A stretch of 40,675 nt of DNA from an uncultured Candidatus Marinamargulisbacteria bacterium (GTDB lineage Bacteria; Margulisbacteria; Riflemargulisbacteria; GWF2-35-9): contig CAIWAN010000066.1 of NCBI GenBank assembly GCA_903910705.1, positions 1 through 40,675 of the forward strand, in the 5' to 3' direction. Every line of letters begins with the position of its first letter. The first letter of the stretch is position 1. Both the position numbers and the translations under genes were made by a program. The notes beneath the pieces were generated by a model. The model worked only from the letters and a program-made list of their open reading frames with translations. It did not search any database and was not told the origin of the DNA. Shown here piece by piece: positions 11,795-40,021 of the stretch.

Positions 11795-11824
11795 ATTCTA
11801 CTTGTTTTGACATTTATTCGGCAA
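11795..11824 (-). promoter_or_regulatory. hldD promoter, leaderless geometry
   Basis: On the minus strand: -35-like TTGCCG (11824-11819), 18-base spacer, -10 TAGAAT (11800-11795), then six bases (GGGAAC) to ATG at 11788. It overlaps the divergent promoter of the 11846 gene, so the two may compete for polymerase. Confidence 0.5.
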
Positions 11825-11835
11825 GTCCGTAAGAT
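11807..11835 (+). promoter_or_regulatory. Promoter of the NIL-ferredoxin gene
   Basis: Perfect -35 TTGACA at 11807-11812, exactly 17 bases, then -10 TAAGAT at 11830-11835. ATG 11846 follows after ten bases, so a start seven or so bases past the box leaves a leader of at most a few bases. This promoter rules out the longer reading frame start at 11717 as the translation start. Confidence 0.7.
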
Positions 11836-11845
11836 AGGCGTTATT

Positions 11846-12268
11846 ATGGCCGATAAAATTAGTAAAAAATGGGTGCTTCAGTTTCCCCCGAATCAAGTGG
11901 ATAAGCCGATCGCGTATCATTTAGTCAAAGATTTTAATCTGGTGATCAATATTCTCCAAGCCAGCGCTCATGAGGAAAAAGAGTCATTTATGATCGTTGA
12001 AGTCATCGGTCGTAAAAAAGATATCGATAATGCGTTTGATTTCCTGCAAACCCAAGAGATCGAAGTGGTCGATATGGAAAAGGGGATTTCCCTTAATGTG
12101 AACGCCTGTATCCATTGTGGCTTATGTGTGGGGCTGTGTCCGACAACAGCGTTGACGATCGATCCCAAGACCCATGAGGTTTGTTTCGAGAAAAAAGATT
12201 GTGTCGTGTGTGATCTTTGCCTTAAATATTGCCCCGTCGCCGCCATTGAGATGGAGTTTTTGAAATGA
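11846..12268 (+). CDS. NIL domain plus two-[4Fe-4S] ferredoxin protein
   Basis: 140 residues. An N-terminal NIL domain (about 1-85; begins KWVLQFPPNQVDKPIAYHL) is followed by a bacterial-type ferredoxin (about 88-140). The ferredoxin has two full Cys-x2-Cys-x2-Cys-x3-Cys-Pro sets: CIHCGLCVGLCP and CVVCDLCLKYCP. This architecture is known as the partner of COG1900/DUF39 proteins in making homocysteine from aspartate semialdehyde and sulfide, where it is thought to supply electrons. The next gene (12265, overlapping by four bases) is a COG1900-like protein, which supports the pairing. The true start is ATG 11846, fixed by the promoter. NIL domains also occur in methionine ABC transporters, consistent with a methionine-related role. 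Confidence 0.85.
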   Translation: MADKISKKWVLQFPPNQVDKPIAYHLVKDFNLVINILQASAHEEKESFMIVEVIGRKKDIDNAFDFLQTQEIEVVDMEKGISLNVNACIHCGLCVGLCPTTALTIDPKTHEVCFEKKDCVVCDLCLKYCPVAAIEMEFLK

Positions 12269-13221
12269 TATTGACCTATGAACAACTGTTAAGCGACGTA
12301 AAGTGCAATGGGCTTAAGTCAATATCCTCAAAAGTTAAAGCTGTTGCTCTGGGTGTTTTTGAGCCGCTTGATCATGTTAGGCTGACCATGGGGTTTAAGT
12401 CGTTAGGGTTAAAACCTTTTTCAGCAAAGATCCAAAATGTCCCCCTGAGCGTCCAAGGTGAACGGGAATTTATTTTAACGCCCACAACCCTTTCGTTGGA
12501 CGATGCCATGAATACCCATTTTCCGGGCGACTTTATTTATGGGGGTGCCTTTGTTCTTGAGGATCTGATGAATCATAAACCGCTTGATTTTCGCGTTTTT
12601 GGCTATCCCACGGATTTAACCGATCGACAAGAACTCCGAAAGTCTATCTCCGTTGATGATCTTCATTATGGGCTTCTTGATGTTGAACTGAGAAAAGACC
12701 TGCATCCCACCGCTTATGTAAATAGTGGAGACACGCTTAAATTTACAGAGAATGGGGCCATCAAGAATAATTTTCAGTCGATAAACTTCCGAACATCCGG
12801 CTTGTTGCAGTCCATTATTGATTTATCGAATCATGTTGAGACGGTCTTTATGGCTGGTACAACAGGGACGCTGAGTACATTGGGAGATTCGCTTGTTCGG
12901 TTTAGTGGTGATTTTCTTCGGATGGACACGTTGTATGCGAGTGGGCTCAGTTTAAAGGGGTACGGTGTGATGCTAGCACTTGGGTTGGGCGCGTTAATTC
13001 GGGTTGATGGAAATAGTCACGTCTTAGAACAGATCATTGCCAATGAAGATCGTTTGTTCAAGGTGGTTGATGGTGTTACGCAAAAAGAGCTTTCTCGTAT
13101 TCCCTTTAAACAATTTCGAGATTCGACGGTTACGATAGGCGAAGACGTATATAAGGTCGGATCTCTGACCAGTTTATACCTTGCCGAACGGATCTCGCGA
13201 CGCTTGTCCGGCCAAGAATAA
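12265..13221 (+). CDS. COG1900/DUF39-like protein lacking the expected cysteines
   Basis: 318 residues. By eye it aligns with the DUF39 (homocysteine-forming, aspartate-semialdehyde sulfurtransferase) family. The stretch VFEPLDHVRLTMGF (31-44) matches the family's 'gtFePMCSSG..l.fGh' step, IQNVPL (57-62) the 'lNNVp' step, and GGAFVLEDLMNHKPLDFRV (93-111) plus GYPTDLTDRQE (113-123) the 'GgAhviEDL..Gk..' and 'yGTDCYPRkE' steps. At both sites where the family carries cysteine this protein has another residue: D36 and L118. Its only cysteine is C14. It is shorter than most members. It may have a changed chemistry or be a non-catalytic partner. It follows its ferredoxin gene with a four-base overlap. 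Family assignment is from memory. Confidence 0.6.
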   Translation: MILTYEQLLSDVKCNGLKSISSKVKAVALGVFEPLDHVRLTMGFKSLGLKPFSAKIQNVPLSVQGEREFILTPTTLSLDDAMNTHFPGDFIYGGAFVLEDLMNHKPLDFRVFGYPTDLTDRQELRKSISVDDLHYGLLDVELRKDLHPTAYVNSGDTLKFTENGAIKNNFQSINFRTSGLLQSIIDLSNHVETVFMAGTTGTLSTLGDSLVRFSGDFLRMDTLYASGLSLKGYGVMLALGLGALIRVDGNSHVLEQIIANEDRLFKVVDGVTQKELSRIPFKQFRDSTVTIGEDVYKVGSLTSLYLAERISRRLSGQE

Positions 13222-39384: not shown

Positions 39385-39412
39385 TTGACAATTGATTGAT
39401 TTAGACTAAAAT
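39385..39412 (+). promoter_or_regulatory. tetR promoter, leaderless geometry
   Basis: Perfect TTGACA at 39385-39390, 16-base spacer, -10 TAAAAT at 39407-39412, then six bases (ACGATT) to ATG 39419. Together with purD and the 1291 and fliQ starts this is one of the clearest leaderless cases. Confidence 0.7.
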
Positions 39413-39418
39413 ACGATT

Positions 39419-40021
39419 ATGGTCGAAAAAATTAATGCGCCCGATAAAGATCAAGCTGTAAAAGAAGATATTCTTGGATCGGCAGAACGTGTTTTCCAAA
39501 AATGGGGATTAAATAAAACCACAATGGAAGATATTGCTTCTGAAGCACAAAAGGGAAAAAGCACCCTATATTATTACTTTAAAAGCAAAGAAGAGATTTT
39601 CGAAGCGGTTATTACTCGGCAGATTGAACAACTATTGATGTCCGCTAAAAAAAGCGTTGAACATGTCAGCTCAAGCAAAGAAAAACTTAAGTTATATGTC
39701 ATTTCATCGCTAAAAGAGATCCATAAATTTGGAATGGTTTTTAGTATTGTCCGTGACGAGATCAAAGGCAATCGATCCTATGTAGATAAAATCTCTCAAA
39801 AAATCAAAGATTCTGAGAAAGATTTCATTAAAGATATACTGCTTGAAGGGGTTGCATCAAAAGAAATCAACTTTAAGATTGAAGAGCTTGAGATCGTGTC
39901 AGAAACTATACTGGGTATTATTTATGCGCTTCACATGTTTCTTTTCAGAGATAATAGAGATGACCTCGAGACAAGTCAAAAGATAGAGATTACGGCAAGG
40001 TTAATCGCAAACGGCATGTAA
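39419..40021 (+). CDS. TetR-family transcriptional regulator
   Basis: 200 residues. N-terminal HTH (about 16-62): ILGSAERVFQKWGLNKTTME, EDIASEAQKGKSTLYYYFKS. The C-terminal helical ligand-binding region ends in MFLFRDNRDD. The gene just downstream is a TolC-type efflux protein, and TetR regulators commonly repress such efflux operons. An inverted repeat at 40036-40056 is a plausible operator. A T-run follows the gene at 40022-40029 but without a convincing stem. Confidence 0.9.
   Translation: MVEKINAPDKDQAVKEDILGSAERVFQKWGLNKTTMEDIASEAQKGKSTLYYYFKSKEEIFEAVITRQIEQLLMSAKKSVEHVSSSKEKLKLYVISSLKEIHKFGMVFSIVRDEIKGNRSYVDKISQKIKDSEKDFIKDILLEGVASKEINFKIEELEIVSETILGIIYALHMFLFRDNRDDLETSQKIEITARLIANGM

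Follow-up and report, generated by a model that had tools for sequence, protein, structure and literature searches.

A diverged COG1900 protein without the family cysteines keeps its NIL-ferredoxin partner in Marinamargulisbacteria and is probably repurposed

Introduction

What does a COG1900 protein do once the cysteines of its family are gone? Cys54 and Cys131 are nearly universally conserved in COG1900a L-aspartate semialdehyde sulfurtransferases (L-ASST). In the window, which is the whole 40,675-nucleotide stretch of an uncultured Marinamargulisbacteria genome that we analysed, a NIL-domain ferredoxin gene precedes a COG1900-like gene whose product was initially annotated as having lost both residues. 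That initial annotation took both to matter, which is somewhat too strong: only Cys54 is reported to be essential in vivo, while a C131A protein stays active (PMC12068725). Within COG1900, L-ASST thus depends on Cys54 but MMP16 can do without its core cysteines (PMC12068725), and a natural and conserved member that lacks the family cysteines and comes with its native ferredoxin would separate the roles of these cysteines from those of the rest of the pocket.

Results

The COG1900-like gene (ATG 12265 to stop 13221, forward strand) starts within the end of the ferredoxin gene, the two sharing 4 bp (ATGA), and encodes a diverged, cysteine-poor protein of 318 aa. Profile searches matched this protein to PF01837 (HcyBio) at 75 bits (cut-off 26.2), over residues 2-315 and profile positions 3-339 of 349, with no other PF01837 match and no Fer4 match along its length, and hhalign aligned it with a canonical homologue over 316 columns at 99.5% probability. 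Both results place it in the PF01837/COG1900 superfamily, and the suspicion that it might belong to a different family was not borne out. It is the single PF01837 match of the window genome, in which the profile search found no second, canonical copy. In a MAFFT alignment, 37 columns, including K50, D79, D80, N83, G93, G94, D117 and N153, are invariant between diverged and canonical proteins; these may be structural. Canonical members have a ~20-residue loop (WQGTQHNPHAPRL...) and a C-terminal tail that are missing from the window protein, and its predicted fold topology is that of a canonical member, with secondary structure elements in matching order. A fold search with the window protein returned nothing from the PDB at E<=0.001, its top hit, at a VIA Z of 4.4 across 59 residues of Ig-like domains, being uninformative, and sequence searches of the PDB found no COG1900-family structure.

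We then compared the positions of the family cysteines. With hhalign, VFEPLDHV of the window protein lies opposite canonical TFGPMCSS, which puts Asp36 (codon 12370..12372, forward strand) at the site of the essential Cys54 of M. acetivorans MA1821, in a loop that is 2 residues shorter; GYPTDLTDRQE lies opposite AYGTDCYPRK, which puts Leu118 (codon 12616..12618, forward strand) at the site of Cys131. These are the two replacements first proposed, and MAFFT, which aligns the first site with a gap of 2 residues, also leaves both sites without a cysteine, although the two comparisons are not independent since both models come from the same 17 sequences. Neither Cys54 nor Cys131 of COG1900a L-ASST is therefore present. 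At a third site, Arg176 (codon 12790..12792, forward strand; NFRTSG) lies opposite a cysteine that is invariant in the full-length canonical homologues of the phylum that were aligned (NYCSAG). Canonical members retain GPMCSSG, GTDCYPR and NYCSAG, while the diverged clade carries Asp or Glu, Leu or Val, and Arg or Lys at the three cysteines, so that the loss of both L-ASST cysteines is common to all four diverged members. Around the Cys54 site, the canonical protein has a loop between two predicted strands (E43-50/E57-63), where the diverged one makes a tight turn of two residues (E26-35/E38-44). Misalignment was ruled out, as both methods leave these sites without a cysteine and the order of the predicted secondary structure elements agrees.

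As initially annotated, the only cysteine of the protein is Cys14 (codon 12304..12306, forward strand). It is private to the window species, being replaced by Leu in the same-genus relative (L020) and by Glu (L019) or Lys (L018) in other genera, and was thus rejected as a replacement thiol. The other cysteines of the clade are just as scattered: L018 has one only in its NERC block (ENRCFN, a non-family position), L019 has one near the C terminus and L020 has none. No cysteine is common to different lineages of the diverged clade.

The ferredoxin gene (ATG 11846 to stop 12268, forward strand) encodes a 140-aa NIL-domain 2[4Fe-4S] ferredoxin that matched the NIL model at 49.6 bits as well as Fer4 models. 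As already noted, it keeps all 8 cluster cysteines (88, 91, 94, 98, 119, 122, 125 and 129), so that the two [4Fe-4S] motifs known from the NIL-ferredoxin partners of L-ASST are in place. A ninth cysteine, Cys113, had gone unmentioned; it adjoins the second cluster, is invariant in 4/4 clade members and is absent from the 8 canonical ferredoxins that were compared. Such a pattern is what one would expect if Cys113 served as a persulfide carrier in trans and the pair still made homocysteine. We consider this reading improbable, given that a lone cysteine with a cluster ligand six residues further on could serve another role and that a second homocysteine synthase is not needed in the window genome, as described below.

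Upstream of the ferredoxin gene lies a sigma70-like promoter (11807..11835, forward strand) made of TTGACA (11807-11812), a 17-bp spacer and TAAGAT (11830-11835), leaving a predicted 5' leader of only ~3-5 nt before the ATG at 11846. The near-leaderless promoter proposed from the window proved real as a motif: a 10/12 match with equivalent placement, which is reached at ~0.26% of random positions, was found in all four genomes (the window, L020, L019 and L018), which represent 3 unrelated upstream sequences. A second near-leaderless sigma70-like promoter is found in the window at 39385-39419, before the gene at 39419, so this arrangement is not special to the ferredoxin/COG1900 pair.

To place the pair in its phylum, we surveyed 74 genomes of Margulisbacteria. 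PF01837 was detected in 20 of them, 16 with a canonical and 4 with a diverged protein. Complete, single-frame canonical copies scored 503-519 bits, and the diverged ones, all from family f1 (the window genome G000, G030, G031 and G033), scored 69-122 bits. Identity to the window protein was 45-88% for the other three diverged proteins and 23-25% for canonical ones. Scanning genome contigs for relatives outside the phylum returned only the same two species (L023 and L024), and neither viral contigs nor plasmids contained any relative; the proteins of L023 and L024 are identical to those of L020 and L019, which leaves the clade documented here by only four genomes, of three lineages at most. A NIL-ferredoxin was found in 19/20 COG1900 genomes and in 0/54 others of the phylum (Fisher p ~1e-16, ignoring shared ancestry), which indicates that the diverged protein keeps its partner. 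The ferredoxin gene comes first in the diverged clade, and the COG1900 gene comes first in the canonical loci that were read.

A low family score (75 bits, against ~510 for canonical members) could betray a COG1900-like gene decaying beside a useful ferredoxin. Comparison with the same-genus relative put Ka/Ks at 0.05 in the COG1900-like gene and at 0.006 in the ferredoxin gene, with Ks near saturation, showing that both genes are under strong purifying selection and that neither is decaying; a pseudogene was ruled out on this basis. Considering also that the frame is open and the ATGA/GTGA overlap kept in all four diverged genomes, and that the proteins are 45-55% identical across genera with long invariant blocks, a relic is barely credible.

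The balance of conservation within the pair is reversed between the two groups. In canonical genomes, COG1900 was more conserved than the ferredoxin in 27/28 pairs (78% versus 70% on average), whereas in the diverged clade the ferredoxin was more conserved in 6/6 pairs (~76% versus ~45-55% between genera). An unusually conserved ferredoxin that keeps its NIL domain, next to a fast-changing COG1900 partner without family cysteines, might be a non-catalytic methionine or redox sensor derived from the old enzyme. Since we saw neither a DNA-binding or output domain nor a linked regulon, and since the conserved core pattern of COG1900 persists, we regard such a sensor as highly improbable. LacI-family regulators that resemble each other at the N terminus are encoded at 169-1218 of the window, ~10 kb from the pair, and at 27-1010 of L018; in G033, one is found immediately ahead of the NIL-ferredoxin gene. 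The neighbours of the pair (an epimerase, rplU, rpmA and obg) give no functional clue, as they are housekeeping-like and differ in G033.

We then looked for another route to homocysteine and found homoserine dehydrogenase, a MetX-like acyltransferase (441 bits, below the strict NCBI cut-off of 500 that no control genome reached either), two MetY O-acetylhomoserine sulfhydrylases (619 and 652 bits; cut-off 495) and an 852-aa MetH that does not extend into the last quarter of the profile. A cystathionine beta-synthase and a cystathionine gamma-synthase/lyase-type enzyme are also encoded. By annotation, the window genome thus has a route from homoserine through homocysteine to methionine, and with a standard MetX/MetY/MetH-type route present the pair would not be needed as a homocysteine synthase.

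Desulfovibrio cannot synthesise homocysteine without COG2122, the MA1715-type helper (PMC5764234). Neither a protein query nor NF003323 detected this helper in the window genome, which is 97.7% complete. It was found in 15/16 canonical COG1900 genomes, in 0/4 diverged ones and in 0/8 genomes of the window's class; it does not strictly define L-ASST, since Synechococcus elongatus matches PF01837 and not NF003323. A full-length PLP homocysteine-type enzyme (a full-length match, roughly E below 1e-80, a cut set after the table was seen) was absent from 13/16 canonical genomes and present in 43/54 genomes without COG1900, uncorrected for ancestry, and the diverged genomes pattern with the COG1900-free ones. 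As 3/16 canonical genomes also have such an enzyme, finding the two together is not in itself proof of a new role, and as the COG2122 and PLP states are uniform across the class, they may reflect ancestry rather than the pair. With a MetX/MetY/MetH route present and COG2122 absent class-wide, the choice first offered between another sulfur carrier and a new reaction shifts towards a new reaction or a mixture of the two, and a carrier in trans such as Cys113 keeps the low probability given above.

If sulfur chemistry disappeared together with the cysteines, the new reaction could be a ferredoxin-dependent carbonyl reduction without any sulfur transfer. The loss of three family cysteines, the absence of COG2122, the standard homocysteine route, the missing loop and tail and the reversed conservation are all consistent with this. 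The pair nevertheless keeps the family pocket residues and a NIL domain, which has been associated with the binding of methionine; these point to a related substrate, and we hold a carbonyl reduction without sulfur transfer to be rather unlikely.

Several other genes deserve mention. Two DsrE/DsrF/DrsH-like proteins and a ThiF-family protein are encoded near the methionine genes (G000:C57, L031 1209-2683; L032 9447-9947) and are possible sulfur carriers. The methionine region also encodes a diverged PLP protein (L032 1781-3232) that scores highest against BesB among NCBIfam models, at 207 bits, far below the 800-bit cut-off; similar matches are present in G030 and G031. Outside the window, at G000:C57 4882-10725 (L031), an OAH sulfhydrylase gene is followed by nifH-, nifB-, nifD- and nifK-like genes. 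The best PDB match of the nifD-like protein (347 bits, with true nitrogenases at 143 bits or less) is 9FMG, the methylthio-alkane reductase of Rhodospirillum rubrum (PMC12552129), and the cluster likely encodes a methylthio-alkane reductase in Marinamargulisbacteria.

Discussion

From these comparisons, we infer that the pair has probably been repurposed. The joint absence of the cysteines and of COG2122 looks like the loss of a persulfide relay, while the conserved pairing and pocket suggest that ferredoxin electrons are still put to some use by the complex. Together with the other route to homocysteine and the precedent of MMP16, this makes us favour, tentatively and with slightly less than even confidence, a ferredoxin-coupled enzyme that derives from L-ASST, works without a cysteine persulfide and is not a required homocysteine synthase. 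In such a repurposed enzyme, the NIL-ferredoxin would still feed electrons to a small, putative carbonyl substrate, bound in the pocket that has been kept from the family (Lys50, Asp79-Asp80, Asn83, PGxFxYGG and Asp117). Sulfur, if transferred, would come from free sulfide and not from a protein thiol, as may also be the case in MMP16. The substrate could still be aspartate semialdehyde, giving a second, sulfide-dependent route. More generally, it seems fairly likely that these proteins form a cysteine-independent branch of COG1900, a NIL-ferredoxin-coupled bacterial enzyme that would catalyse either a non-homocysteine reaction or a reductive thiolation that uses free sulfide instead of a protein persulfide. 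In practice, even when a PF01837 match exceeds the Pfam cut-off, the cysteines should be checked before homocysteine synthesis is annotated.

The closest known pairs are MA1821 (COG1900a) with MA1822 (NIL-ferredoxin), which form L-ASST, and the DUF39/NIL-ferredoxin pair of Desulfovibrio. Like them, the window combines a PF01837 protein with a NIL/2[4Fe-4S] ferredoxin that has all eight cluster cysteines; unlike them, it has no cysteine at Cys54, Cys131 or the third family site, and its genome lacks COG2122 and has a standard MetX/MetY route. Next to canonical members of its own phylum, the window protein shares the 37 invariant columns at ~24% identity, without the loop and the C-terminal tail and with a reversed gene order. 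The other instructive comparison is with MMP16/ComF, the COG1900d coenzyme M synthase, whose core cysteines are dispensable in vivo (PMC12068725). The window protein has no match to the corresponding model TIGR03287 at E<=1, and its relatives reach 19-31 bits against a cut-off of 364. As in MMP16, a COG1900 domain is coupled to ferredoxin electrons and family cysteines are not at the COG1900a positions; unlike in MMP16, the ferredoxin is a separate NIL-domain polypeptide instead of being inserted in the COG1900 domain.
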